Of a stretch of 64,000 bases of DNA, positions 26,075-61,070 are shown piece after piece. A model generated the notes under the pieces. That model made no database searches and was not told the origin of the DNA. It saw only the letters and a program-made list of their open reading frames with translations. The number at the start of each line of letters is the position of its first letter. Within the stretch, counting starts at the first letter, position 1. Where the stretch lies: the NCBI RefSeq assembly GCF_005780165.1, contig NZ_VAUV01000006.1, forward strand, positions 248,001 to 312,000, written 5' to 3'. The stretch is from Phragmitibacter flavus (GTDB lineage: Bacteria; Verrucomicrobiota; Verrucomicrobiia; Verrucomicrobiales; Verrucomicrobiaceae). A program made the translations under genes and the position numbers.

Positions 26075-26243
26075 TTCTTCTCCTCGTCCTCGTTCTCCTA
26101 CTCGTCCTCCTACTCCCCACACCAAACTCCAAGTCTTTGCAGATCCACCGATTCACCCGAGTCATGTTCCCGCCCTTGACCGCTTCATTCGCAACGCTCT
26201 GCCATCAGGAGAGGAGGAGTAAGAGTAAGAGTAGGAGGACGAT
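26075..26243. repeat. Short derivative of the four-helix-bundle repeat element
   Basis: A pyrimidine-rich CTCGTCCTCCTACTC tract at 26075-26118 is mirrored by a purine-rich GAGTAAGAGTAGGAGG tract at 26210-26243. The end of the left tract matches the element at 54694 over 23 bases (through CCCCACACCAAAC), and the right tract shares AAGAGTAGGAGGA with it. Only about 90 bases lie between, with a possible decayed start (KLQVF) of the four-helix-bundle frame. It is probably a deletion derivative. Confidence 0.68.
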
Positions 26244-30994: not shown

Positions 30995-31126
30995 CTCTTC
31001 CTCCTGCTCCTACTCTTACTCCTACTCCCCTCGCCAACCATCGCCAACGCCGGTTGGCTCCGCGACACCTCGCGACATCTAGCAGAATCATCTCGTCCTC
31101 GTCCTCCTACTCGAACTCGTCCTCGA
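30995..31126. repeat. Degenerate CTCCTACTC tracts
   Basis: Two pyrimidine-rich hexamer-like tracts (30995-31030 and 31091-31126) resemble the ends of the four-helix-bundle element but have the same orientation. Small GC hairpins (GCCAAC/GTTGGC) lie between. No reading frame of that family remains. Confidence 0.55.
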
Positions 31127-53644: not shown

Positions 53645-54676
53645 ATGTCCAGCCCCAGTCAACCCACCACCACCGGGTCGCCTCCGCAAGAGCAGGACGA
53701 CGTCGCCGCCATCAACGAACTCCGCACCGTCTACGGCCGACTCACGGCTGAACTCGGCAAGATCATCGTCGGCCAGCAGCAGGTCATTGAGCAGCTCGCC
53801 ATCTGCCTCTTCGCCCGCGGCCACGCCCTGCTCATGGGTGTTCCCGGTCTCGCCAAAACGTTGCTCATCAGCCGCTTGGCCGAAACGTTGTCCCTCAGTT
53901 TTAGCCGCATCCAGTTCACGCCCGACCTGATGCCCATGGACATCACCGGCACCGACATCCTCCAGGAACTCCCCGGTGGAAAACGCGCCTTCGAATTCGC
54001 CAAAGGACCCGTCTTCGCCAACATCGTGCTGGCCGACGAAATCAACCGCGCCCCCGCCAAAACCCAGGCCGCGATGCTCGAAGCCATGCAGGAACACCGC
54101 GTCACCGTCGCCGGCCGCACCTACACCCTCGACTCCCCCTTCTTTGTCCTCGCCACCCAAAACCCCATCGAACAGGAAGGCACCTATCCATTGCCCGAAG
54201 CCCAGCTCGACCGCTTCATGTTCATGATCGGCGTCGGTTACCCCAGTCGCGAAGAAGAACTCGCCATCGCCCGCAGCACCACCGGAGCCACCCTGCCCCA
54301 GCTCAACCACATCCTCGACGGCGAAAAAGTCCTCTTTTTCCAGAACCTCGTCCGTCGCGTTCCCGTGCCCGACCATATCTATGAATTCGCCGTCGATCTC
54401 GTCCGTCGCACCCGACCCAACGAACCCGAAGCCCCCGCTTGGTTGAAACCCCTGGTCGGCTGGGGTGCCGGACCTCGTGCCGTGCAGTATCTGATCTTGG
54501 GAGCCAAAGCCCGCGCCGCCCTGCACGGCAGTTATATCGTCCGACACGAAGACATCATTGCCGTCGCCGATCCCGTCTTGCGTCATCGCGTCATGACCAC
54601 CTTCACCGCCGAGTCCGAGGGCGTTTCCAGCCAGGACGTCACCCGCCGTCTGGTCAGTGAACTTGAGAAGTCTTAA
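53645..54676 (+). CDS. MoxR-family AAA+ ATPase
   Basis: A 343-residue AAA+ protein from ATG 53645 (a longer frame starts at 53498). It has Walker A GVPGLAKT, Walker [11 protein letters not shown], and [28 protein letters not shown], typical of MoxR. The C-terminal lid helices follow ([40 protein letters not shown]). MoxR proteins act as chaperone-like ATPases with VWA-domain partners, here DUF58 and the BatA-type genes downstream. The operon is interrupted by the four-helix-bundle element right after this gene. Confidence 0.95.
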
Positions 54677-54693: not shown

Positions 54694-55201
54694 TCCTCCT
54701 CTTCCTCTTACTCCTCCTCCTACTCCCCACACCAAACCCCCAACAACTCGAATGCCCCCCAAATTCGATCACGAAAAACTCAAGGTCTACCAATTCGAAC
54801 TCCACTTCATCACCTGGCTCACCCAACTCCTCGCCGAACTCAAACAATCCCACCCACGCGGCATGACCACCATCATCGACCAACTCGACCGCGCCAGCCT
54901 TTCCGTCCTCCTGAACACCGCCGAAGGAAACGGTCGACGAGCGACTCAACAACGCATCCGCTTCTTGGACGACGCCCGCGGTTCAGCCACCGAATGCGCC
55001 GCGTGTCTCGATGCTCTCGTCGCAAAAAGTCTAACATCCCCACCCCGCATCGACAGCGGCAAAGATCTCCTCATCAGCATCGTCTCCATGCTCACCAAAC
55101 TGATCGAACTCTTCGAAGGTAAATTAGACAAACCACTACCCTCAAAACCCCTTGGTTCCACAGACGGGGAGTAGGAGGAGGAGGAAGAGTAGGAGGAAGA
55201 T
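54694..55201. mobile_element. Four-helix-bundle repeat element with pyrimidine/purine inverted ends
   Basis: A left pyrimidine tract (54694-54731, CTCCTCCTCCTACTCCCC at its inner end) is mirrored by a right purine tract (55165-55201). The inner 18 bases are perfect inverted complements. The only cargo is a four-helix-bundle gene. A short derivative with the same ends is at 26075-26243, and degenerate tracts lie at 30995. Mobility is inferred from copy number and structure; no transposase is present and target-site duplication was not found. It sits between the MoxR and DUF58 genes, which are normally adjacent. Confidence 0.65.
54752..55174 (+). CDS. Four-helix-bundle protein (23S rRNA IVP-like family)
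   Basis: A 140-residue protein of the four-helix-bundle family that includes 23S rRNA intervening-sequence proteins. Features are FDHEKLKVYQFELHFITWLTQLLAEL, IDQLDRASLSVLLNTAEGNGRR, FLDDARGSATECAACLDALVAKSL, and a final helix ISIVSMLTKLIELFEGKL. This family binds nucleic acid or oligomerises in some members, but no function is established here. It is the cargo of the repeat element and uses its end tract near the stop codon. Confidence 0.88.
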   Translation: MPPKFDHEKLKVYQFELHFITWLTQLLAELKQSHPRGMTTIIDQLDRASLSVLLNTAEGNGRRATQQRIRFLDDARGSATECAACLDALVAKSLTSPPRIDSGKDLLISIVSMLTKLIELFEGKLDKPLPSKPLGSTDGE

Positions 55202-55207
55202 CCAACC

Positions 55208-56116
55208 ATGACTAACCCCACCCGCCAATTCCTCAATCCCGCACTCCTCGCCCGTCTCCGTGCCCTACCCCTCCACGCCCGCACGGCCATGATCGGCAGC
55301 GTCTCCGGCAAACACCGGTCCCCCGTCAAAGGCTCCTCCCTCGAATTCGCCCAATACCGCAAATACGTCCCCGGCGACGACACCCGCCGCCTCGACTGGC
55401 GCACCTGGGGCCGCACCGACCGCTTCTACATCAAAGAATTCGAAGCCGACACCAACCTCCGCCTCAACCTCATCCTTGATGCCAGCGGCAGCATGAACTT
55501 CGGCCCCCCCGGCCACACCCGGCTCGACTATGCCCGCCAGCTCGCCGGCTCCCTCGCCTGGCTCGCCGCCCGTCAAGGCGACGCCGTCGGACTCTGGACC
55601 GTCCATCCCGACACCACCCACGAAATCCCCTGCAAACGCGGCCCCACCCACCTTGGTCTCGTCCTCGACCGCATCGGTGAAACCCAGGCCAGCGGCGAAA
55701 CCCGACTCATCCCCGCCCTTCACGAAGCCGCCGAAAAAGTCCGCCAACGCTCCCTCACCGTCATCCTATCCGACCTCTTCATCCCCCCCGCCGAACTCAA
55801 ACCCGCCCTCCAGCACCTGCGCTTCCGCAATCACGACACCGTCATCCTCCATCTCCTCGACCAGGCCGAACTCGACTTCAACATCGACCGCCCCGCCCGT
55901 TTCGTCGACATGGAAGGCACCGAACACGTGCTCGCCGACCCCTCCCTCGTCACCCGCCAATACCGCGAAGCCATTGCCCAATACCTCAGCGAACTCGACA
56001 CCATCGTCCGCGACACCGGCATCGACTACCACCGCATCAAACTCCACGAAAACCCCGAAGAAGTCCTCGCCCGCTTCCTCCTCAACCGCACCCCCAAGAG
56101 AGGAGCCCGCTCATGA
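55208..56116 (+). CDS. DUF58 protein with a VWA-like domain
   Basis: A 302-residue DUF58 protein. The N-terminal part has KHRSPVKGSSLEFAQYRKYVPGDDTRRLDWRTWGRTDRFYIKEFEAD, the family signature. The VWA-like MIDAS is in LILDASGSMNF. It is the usual partner of MoxR ATPases and probably binds metal and client proteins at the membrane. The N-terminal membrane segments of longer DUF58 proteins are absent. The C-terminus ends LLNRTPKRGARS. It is separated from MoxR by the inserted element. Confidence 0.94.
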   Translation: MTNPTRQFLNPALLARLRALPLHARTAMIGSVSGKHRSPVKGSSLEFAQYRKYVPGDDTRRLDWRTWGRTDRFYIKEFEADTNLRLNLILDASGSMNFGPPGHTRLDYARQLAGSLAWLAARQGDAVGLWTVHPDTTHEIPCKRGPTHLGLVLDRIGETQASGETRLIPALHEAAEKVRQRSLTVILSDLFIPPAELKPALQHLRFRNHDTVILHLLDQAELDFNIDRPARFVDMEGTEHVLADPSLVTRQYREAIAQYLSELDTIVRDTGIDYHRIKLHENPEEVLARFLLNRTPKRGARS

Positions 56117-56130
56117 CCTCTCTAGTCCCC

Positions 56131-56248
56131 CCGACGTCTCGTCGGTCAGAAAACCATGGAGCGCCGACGTATCGTCGGCATAGACTCCCCCCCATCGGAC
56201 CACCGACGTTTCGTCGGCCATCAGCCCAGACCACGAAGTTTCACTTCG
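56131..56248. repeat. Array of short hairpins between DUF58 and the membrane-protein gene
   Basis: Three copies of CCGACGTNTCGTCGG (56131-56145, 56164-56178 within a slightly longer palindrome, 56203-56217) and a related CGAAGTTTCACTTCG (56234-56248). Each folds into a 6-bp stem with a 3-base loop, spaced about 18-24 bases. They are direct and self-complementary, unlike CRISPR repeats. Confidence 0.88.
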
Positions 56249-58791: not shown

Positions 58792-58875
58792 CCGACTTCC
58801 GACTTCCGACTTCCGACTTCCGACTTCCGACTTCCGACTTCCGACTTCCCACTTCCCACTTCCCACTTCCCACTT
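58792..58875. repeat. 12-unit 7-bp tandem array before the next VWA gene
   Basis: Eight exact CCGACTT units are followed by four exact CCCACTT units, 84 bases in all. The last T of the array is the first base of the TTG start of the next gene. Copy-number change could alter the leader and distance between the two genes but cannot shift the downstream frame if that TTG is used. Confidence 0.95.
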
Positions 58876-61070
58876 TGAAATCCTCCCTCGTCTTCCATCC
58901 CACCCCGCTGTCCCTCACAGCGGGCATCGGACTGGTCGTCGTCATCGCCCTCCTCAGCTACCTCGGCTGGAAACGCTCCAACTACAAACGCACCACCGGC
59001 TGGCTCGAACTCCTCCGCTTCGGCATCGCCACCGGCATCGCCCTCACCCTCAACCAGCCCGAGTGGCACCAAACCTTCACCCCCGACACCAAACCCGTGC
59101 TCGCCATCCTTTGGGACAACTCCCGCAGCATGGAAACCCGCGACGTCATCGACCCCGCCACTCCCGCTTCCGAACCCCGCTCCCGCGCCGAAACCCTCCC
59201 TCCCCTCATCGACCCCAATCTCTGGCAGCCCCTCGCCAAACGCCTCAACATCCTCATCGGCCCCTTCTCCTCCGCCCAAACTCCCCCCGAAGAAGGCACC
59301 GACATCAATGCCGCCCTCCAGTCCCTCCTCGAACAACAACCCAACCTCGCCGCCGTCCTCCTTCTCTCCGACGGCGACTGGAACACCGGCACCCCACCCG
59401 CCCAGGCCGCCACCCGCCTGCGCATGCGCGACACCCCCCTCTTCACCGTCCCCATTGGCTCCGACACCAAACTTCCCGACCTCGAACTCACCGCCTTCGA
59501 TGTCCCCACCTTCGCCATCGCCGGCAAACCCCTGCGCATCCCCTTCACCATCACCAGCTCACTCCCGCGCGACGAAACCCTCACCGTTGAACTCAAAACC
59601 CCCGGCGGCGAAATCATCAGCAAGACCCTCACCCTCCCCGCCATGGCCACCCACCAGGACAGCATCGCCTGGCGACCTGCCGATCCCGGCGAAACCACTC
59701 TCACCCTCACCCTTCCGAAAACCGGGGCCGAACGTTACCTCGAAAACAACACCCTCAGCGCCCCCCTCACCATCCGCAAAGAACAGCTCCGCGTCCTCCT
59801 CGTTGAAACCTATCCCCGCTGGGAATACCGCTACCTCCGCAACGCCCTCGACCGCGACCCCGGCATCGATGTCCACTGCCTCCTTCTCCATCCCGGCCTC
59901 GGCAAACCCGCCACCGGAAACGGCTACCTCCCCGCCTTTCCCAAAGACGACCAGCTCGCCCAATATGACGTCATCTTCCTCGGCGACATCGGCCTCACCC
60001 CCGGTCAACTCACCCAGGAAAACGTCGTCGCCCTGCAAAAACTCATTCGCGACCAGGCCACCGGACTCGTCTTCCTCCCCGGTATCCACGGCCATCAGCT
60101 TACCCTCGCCAACACCCCCCTCGCCGACCTCCTCCCCATCCAGTGGGACGAAACCCAACCCCGCGGTTGGGGCTCCACCACCCCCGGCAAAATCGTCCTC
60201 ACCGAAACCGGCGCCCAATCCCTCCTCACCAAACTCGGCGACACCGACGAGCTGAGCACCTCCGTCTGGGCCACCCTCCCCGGCTTCCAATGGCACGCCC
60301 CCGCCCTCCGCGCCAAAGCTGGCAGTGAAGTCCTCGCCACCCACGGCAGCGAATCCAACCGCTTCGGCCGCATCCCCCTCATCGTCACCAAAACCTACGG
60401 CGCCGGCAAAATCCTCTACATGGGAGCCGACGGAGCCTGGCGCTGGCGACGCGGCGTCGAAGACCGCCACCACTACCGCTTCTGGGGCCAGGTCGTCCGC
60501 TGGATGGCCTACCAACGCAACATGGCCGGCGGCGACCGCATCCGCCTCTTCTACACCCCCGACCGACCAAAAACCGGCGACACCCTCACCCTCAACGCCA
60601 ACGTCATGACCCTCAGCGGCGAACCCCAGCGCGACGGTGCCGTCATCGCTCAGATCGCCACCCCCACCGGCAAGACCAGCAGCATCCGCCTCACCCCCGC
60701 CGGCGACGAAGCCTGGGGACTCTTCACCGCCACCTTCACCCCCACCGAACCCGGCGAACATCAAATCAACCTCACCAGTCCCAGCGCCAACGCCAGTCTC
60801 GAAACCAAACTCTCCGTCCAGGGCAGCACCCGTGAAAAACTCGGTCAGCCCATCAAAAAAGAACTTCTTCGCGAACTCGCCCAAATCACCCGCGGCCAGC
60901 TTCTCGAAACCACCGACCCCACCGCCCTCCTCGCCACCCTCACCAACCTCCCCGAACCCCAACCCACCGAGCGACGTATTCCTCTCTGGGCACACCCCGT
61001 TTGGGCTGGTATATTGCTCACATTAATGGCCCTTTTCTGGATCGGCCGCAAAGCCACCGGCGCTTTTTGA
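58875..61070 (+). CDS. VWA/glutamine-amidotransferase-like membrane protein
   Basis: About 731 residues if TTG 58875 is the start; no ATG fits and the frame stays open through the repeat array upstream. N-terminal membrane helix GIGLVVVIALLSYLGW, a second helix near LELLRFGIATGIALTL, then a VWA-like MIDAS in LAILWDNSRSME. Next is a beta-rich domain and a glutamine-amidotransferase-like Rossmann part (LRVLLVETYPRWEYRYLRNALDRDPGIDVHCLLLHPG, LVFLPGIHGHQ, GAGKILYMGADGAWRWRR). A C-terminal membrane helix closes it. It belongs to the MoxR/DUF58/BatA set. Confidence 0.85.
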   Translation: MKSSLVFHPTPLSLTAGIGLVVVIALLSYLGWKRSNYKRTTGWLELLRFGIATGIALTLNQPEWHQTFTPDTKPVLAILWDNSRSMETRDVIDPATPASEPRSRAETLPPLIDPNLWQPLAKRLNILIGPFSSAQTPPEEGTDINAALQSLLEQQPNLAAVLLLSDGDWNTGTPPAQAATRLRMRDTPLFTVPIGSDTKLPDLELTAFDVPTFAIAGKPLRIPFTITSSLPRDETLTVELKTPGGEIISKTLTLPAMATHQDSIAWRPADPGETTLTLTLPKTGAERYLENNTLSAPLTIRKEQLRVLLVETYPRWEYRYLRNALDRDPGIDVHCLLLHPGLGKPATGNGYLPAFPKDDQLAQYDVIFLGDIGLTPGQLTQENVVALQKLIRDQATGLVFLPGIHGHQLTLANTPLADLLPIQWDETQPRGWGSTTPGKIVLTETGAQSLLTKLGDTDELSTSVWATLPGFQWHAPALRAKAGSEVLATHGSESNRFGRIPLIVTKTYGAGKILYMGADGAWRWRRGVEDRHHYRFWGQVVRWMAYQRNMAGGDRIRLFYTPDRPKTGDTLTLNANVMTLSGEPQRDGAVIAQIATPTGKTSSIRLTPAGDEAWGLFTATFTPTEPGEHQINLTSPSANASLETKLSVQGSTREKLGQPIKKELLRELAQITRGQLLETTDPTALLATLTNLPEPQPTERRIPLWAHPVWAGILLTLMALFWIGRKATGAF

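Follow-up and report, generated by a model that had tools for sequence, protein, structure and literature searches.

Comparison with described elements

The terminal inverted repeats of the 23S rRNA intervening sequence (IVS) of Coxiella form a 28-bp stem that is cut by RNase III (PMC4990558), and rRNA inserts carrying a PF05635-type protein are known, also in bacteria of the CPR (PMC11270868). REPINs are inverted doublets that form hairpins and are linked to RAYTs, which seem unable to move themselves (PMC3116915). A third kind of element consists of heptameric repeats. Xanthomonas, Nostoc, and Beggiatoaceae have arrays of period 7 between genes, with approximately 70 convergent inverted pairs per genome in Xanthomonas, and the available text of the two reports on them draws no tie to PF05635 (PMC4692102, PMC4679880).

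The locus examined here lies in the window, the whole 64,000-nucleotide stretch of Phragmitibacter flavus DNA that was analysed, and the preliminary description had likened it to rRNA intervening sequences. This proved to be the right comparison, as the 23S rRNA IVS (e.g., in Coxiella burnetii) and the window element both have a gene of the same family inside stem-forming terminal inverted repeats and form a unit of roughly 430–510 bp. However, the window element is located between protein genes (moxR and DUF58) instead of in rRNA and has no Rfam match, and its arms are short-tandem-repeat arrays, a structure that may set them apart from the stems of the IVS. The REPIN/RAYT system shares with the window unit a gene between inverted repeats, dispersed gene-less inverted doublets, and long persistence, and among the described systems it comes closest as a model of how a gene can have inverted copies without the gene scattered elsewhere. 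On the other hand, the window unit has no HuH (Y1) transposase; the gene between its arms belongs to PF05635 and encodes a four-helix bundle with no recognised catalytic site, and its arms are tandem arrays, whereas REP palindromes are fixed. The Avd protein of diversity-generating retroelements has a similar overall fold (4dwl, 8ub7), as judged from the predicted model, although there is no reverse transcriptase near the window gene. MITEs are likewise small, with inverted ends and no transposase, but the interiors of the gene-less copies are mostly unrelated and no target duplication was shown. Within the open-access literature, no paper was found that joins PF05635 genes to tandem-repeat arms. 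Heptamer arrays and rRNA inserts have each been described, as far as the available text of those reports goes, and the link between heptamer-type arrays and the rRNA-insert protein is provisionally regarded as new.

Anatomy of the block between moxR and DUF58

The block and its host genes have the following features:

53645..54676, + strand: MoxR-like AAA ATPase, the upstream host gene (putative start; orthologues adjoin DUF58 in relatives)
54694..54728, + strand: left arm, a degenerate pyrimidine hexamer array (TCYTMC)n ending in CTACTCCCC
54752..55174, + strand: PF05635/TIGR02436 four-helix-bundle gene, 140 aa (profile matches and predicted structure)
55166..55200, + strand: right arm, an inverted hexamer array with purines on this strand (as read from the sequence)
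55208..56116, + strand: DUF58, the downstream host gene (PF01882, E = 1.4e-39)

The gene is indeed enclosed by inverted pyrimidine and purine tracts, as had been proposed, the arms being inverted complements at 31/35 bases with the inner 18 exact (CTCCTCCTCCTACTCCCC). Both tracts are degenerate (TCYTMC)n arrays in which the order of unit variants is common to the left and right arm, and the right arm overlaps the final codons of the PF05635 gene. Folded as RNA, the block has a predicted energy of –140 kcal/mol versus –111 kcal/mol for shuffled sequences (z = –4.9), with the arms pairing and closing the element. A further early claim, that the block splits moxR from DUF58, also holds: the window moxR is 81–89% identical to orthologues beside DUF58 in relatives, and the two genes are 12–94 bp apart in relatives without the insert. 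The searches of the block returned no match to a terminator, promoter, or Rfam family, and the unit encodes no transposase of its own, as an autonomous insertion sequence would. Between DUF58 and the next gene (56130–56225), a palindromic motif, CCGACGNNNCGTCGG, occurs three times.

The 140-aa product matches PF05635 (E = 1.3e-16, 61.1 bits against a cut-off of 33.8) and TIGR02436 (E = 4.6e-16, 59 bits against a cut-off of 24). Its AlphaFold model consists of four helices with a mean pLDDT of 90.5, a confident four-helix bundle. The closest solved folds are 2gsc (XCC0516), with a TM-score of 0.74 to the predicted model when normalised to query length, and 2rld (BT_0352), followed by Avd of the Bordetella phage diversity-generating retroelement (4dwl). 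The gene is under purifying selection, with dN/dS of approximately 0.02–0.15 among the pairs with estimable dS.

Recurrence of the gene with inverted arms

PF05635 genes are generally flanked by inverted short-tandem-repeat arms, and this holds across many phyla. Within the order, PF05635 is present in 51/57 sampled genomes and most of the genes examined are flanked by inverted tandem arrays, the repeat unit of which varies between elements and is common to both arms of one element. In a multi-phylum test of 79 PF05635 genes against 1,103 control placements in the same loci, 61/79 genes exceeded the 99th percentile of the controls (27), and a score of at least 30 was reached by 58/79 genes versus 3/1,103 controls; within the order, the corresponding counts were 22/31 and 0/186. 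Because these same-locus controls lie mostly in coding sequence, ParE toxin genes were added as a gene-based control. None of the 29 ParE genes, taken from the order, reached 30 with the 300-base flanks that were also used for PF05635, while 6/29 did so with 600-base flanks, two of them via arrays of the CACAGAG kind.

The arms scoring at least 28 have a period of 7 in 68/88 cases and are G-rich when read inward in 81/88, so that the window element, with period 6 and C-rich arms read inward, is atypical. Arms were found at three of six plasmid PF05635 loci and were lacking at the other three, and two of the three armed loci represent one element. This is a PF05635 gene with period-7 arms in a block shared by two plasmids of one Calothrix strain (L150 and L151). 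The GxxExxY genes (PF13366) of the order (L243–L272), which were intended as a negative control, came out positive, with 24/29 scoring at least 30, and this outcome also led to the ParE control. Their arms differ in kind, having ACGGA or CAGAG motifs and a period of mostly 8–9. Inverted arms of this general sort therefore accompany more than one gene family and are no mark of the PF05635 protein in particular.

Gain, loss, and concerted arm change at orthologous sites

A PF05635 gene occupies the moxR-DUF58 junction in nine genomes (G000, which is the window genome, G008, G025, G029, G030, G032, G035, G094, and G096), and the nine proteins form a single clade (100/100) separate from 53 other PF05635 proteins. 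The junction is empty, at 12–94 bp, in ten genomes (G001, G003, G005, G010, G011, G013, G018, G022, G026, and G027), holds an apparent decayed start of a PF05635 gene in G009 and a GxxExxY gene in G006, and contains other small reading frames in G016. This distribution fits one old entry at the moxR site followed by inheritance and loss. The preliminary description had considered the same gene being conserved at this position across the family to be at odds with a mobile unit; it is kept here in nine species, while the site is empty, decayed, or otherwise filled elsewhere. Of the proposed mobile unit with hexamer-like ends, the recurring gene with inverted arms and no transposase inside stands, whereas recent arrival at the site does not. 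Recent transposition at this site is not supported, as the same gene is found in nine sampled species as one clade. In G023 and G027, a paralogous moxR-DUF58 junction holds a separate and unrelated PF05635 gene (L303 and L304), the arms of which have period 7.

Two sites in the genus of G055 also differ in gene content among species. At the first site, several species have 75–78 bp of intergenic sequence with a hairpin, others have a PF05635 gene with one arm set or a diverged gene with other arms, and further species have gene-less arrays. At the second site, G049 has an intact gene with arms, G052 and G055 have the arms without the gene, and apparent decayed remains are seen in G047, G043, and G091. 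The arms without a gene in G052 and G055, together with the decayed remains, indicate that gene loss can yield gene-less palindromes. Exact empty sites were sought in this genus and at the moxR site, where presence and absence are clear and the junctions are too diverged for target duplications to be read.

The arms at the moxR site are of the TCYTMC type on both sides in three species and of the TCGTCC type on both sides in five, and G035 (L222) is a hybrid around the same gene, with a left arm of the TCGTCC type and a right arm of the TCYTMC type that still pair. Both arms thus switch repeat type together at this site. The match between arms is higher within species than between species (permutation p = 0.001), and the same test gave p = 0.003 at a second orthologous locus and p = 0.07 and 0.08, short of significance, at two further ones; these values serve as guides because related sequences are not independent.

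Gene-less arrays in the same genome

A whole-genome DNA search gave 56 matches, nearly all of which are arrays. Copies with the same ends do exist, in that hexamer arrays of the TCYTMC type occur at more than 20 further places in the genome, but all of these are gene-less and, among the hexamer-array places of this genome, only the window copy has a PF05635 gene. Many of the gene-less arrays are inverted pairs flanking unrelated sequence, and a second hexamer type (TCGTCC...TCGA) is often nested inside them. Two such places are located in the window:

26075..26242, no strand assigned: palindrome without a gene, built of the hexamer family seen in the window arms, with 23 exact bases in common with the left arm
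30995..31110, no strand assigned: hexamer arrays of that family, likewise gene-less, the outer of TCCTAC type and the inner of TCGTCC type

The exact 23-base match, TCCTCCTACTCCCCACACCAAAC, is at 54715–54737 and at 26105–26127 in the palindrome. The match to this shortened relative is therefore real, although it had been placed at 26075, about 30 bases off. PF05635 remnants are absent from 27 gene-less hexamer places of the window genome, including the palindrome at 26075..26242, so that the gene-less palindromes of this genome are linked to the gene by repeat type only. A very long gene-less hexamer array of approximately 20 units is present at L018:2303–2437.

The window genome has four PF05635 genes besides the one in the window. 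Among their arm types, AAGTCGG and CTTTATC occur at many other places, GATTTAT occurs at one other place at least, and TTCTTGG was not found elsewhere; these counts are lower bounds, as 40 of 182 candidates were scored. Tandem CTTCCGA/CTTCCCA heptamers, a type flanking another PF05635 gene of the genome (L013), are located in the window at 58795–58906.

Nature of the element and alternative explanations

We judge there to be about an even chance that the block is an IVS-like stem-loop genetic element, i.e., a small gene between inverted short-tandem-repeat arms that has been placed in an operon. In the moxR-DUF58 transcript, the arms would pair into a stem of approximately 30 base pairs closing off the gene, and, by analogy with the ribosomal IVS, this stem would probably be trimmed by an enzyme that cuts double-stranded RNA, for instance RNase III. 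Such trimming would allow the insertion to be tolerated in the operon and, given the ribosomal IVS precedent (PMC4990558), is the simplest account of that tolerance. The PF05635 product, with the predicted fold of IVS and Avd proteins, probably binds nucleic acid and perhaps the arm stems. On this reading, the unit arrived at the site a single time, in a forebear shared by several genera, and has been inherited and lost since, its arms staying paired while their repeat type was rewritten, most simply through exchange with gene-less palindromes of the same type. Several observations count against the reading: the period and base composition of the window arms are atypical, GxxExxY genes have arms as well, the arms of G035 are of two types, two of the four orthologous loci fall short of significance for arm coevolution, and the gene-less palindromes of the genome are tied to the gene by repeat type only.

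An unlikely alternative is that a transposase acting in trans, e.g., a Y1 (HuH) enzyme, copies the inverted arrays to new places in the genome, whether or not they enclose the gene, with the PF05635 gene as passenger or helper, in the manner of REPINs and RAYTs. The scatter of inverted gene-less arrays across the genome and the precedent of hairpin-forming doublets linked to RAYTs (PMC3116915) would agree with this, and Y1 transposase genes are present in 54/57 relatives, with 13 in the window genome. PF05635 and Y1 counts have a raw rank correlation of 0.50, but this falls to 0.19 (p = 0.17) after correction for genome size; the Y1 count thus tracks the PF05635 count mostly because of genome size, and G038 has a PF05635 gene without any Y1 gene. 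Moreover, the gene at the moxR site was inherited and not recently moved, and neither a target duplication nor an exact empty junction was resolved among the empty sites, which are too diverged.

The gene may instead have a cell function, e.g., in regulating its own operon, in which case the arms would be stems that process or stabilise the mRNA and mobility would be incidental. We regard this as rather unlikely. Strong purifying selection and long inheritance at one place would be expected of such a host gene, and in two species a second, unrelated PF05635 gene is found at the paralogous moxR-DUF58 junction. However, many relatives have no PF05635 gene at the moxR-DUF58 junction, members of the family are dispersed over unrelated loci, and the arm sequence varies from element to element.

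Retro-transposition by a reverse transcriptase supplied in trans, which the preliminary description had raised, is very improbable and gains no support from co-occurrence, despite the Avd-like predicted fold and the presence of one reverse transcriptase in the window genome: over 57 genomes, the number of PF05635 genes does not vary with the number of reverse transcriptases (Spearman 0.12, partial –0.04), and reverse transcriptases are absent from five genomes with 9–10 PF05635 genes. A single reverse transcriptase was found in the window genome (G000:C2:80239–80865, L176); it is on another contig and appears from its sequence to be of the group II intron type. That intergenic simple repeats merely happen to flank the gene is scarcely credible, for although these genomes contain many arrays of this sort, both arms have their unit variants in the same order and the ParE genes and same-locus placements contrast sharply with the PF05635 genes in the proportion with high-scoring arms.

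Implications for the family

We consider it plausible, while leaning slightly against it, that small genes between inverted tandem-repeat arms constitute a general class of bacterial elements with at least two families (PF05635 and GxxExxY/PF13366). The rRNA IVSs would then be those members that inserted into rRNA genes, and many over-represented intergenic heptamer arrays would be members without a gene. PF05635 is widespread in the order, and the shared architecture supplies its proteins with testable partners, namely the arms. This architecture would link heptamer arrays to rRNA inserts and to another orphan family (PF13366), and a considerable share of the simple repeats found between bacterial genes could be accounted for in this way.
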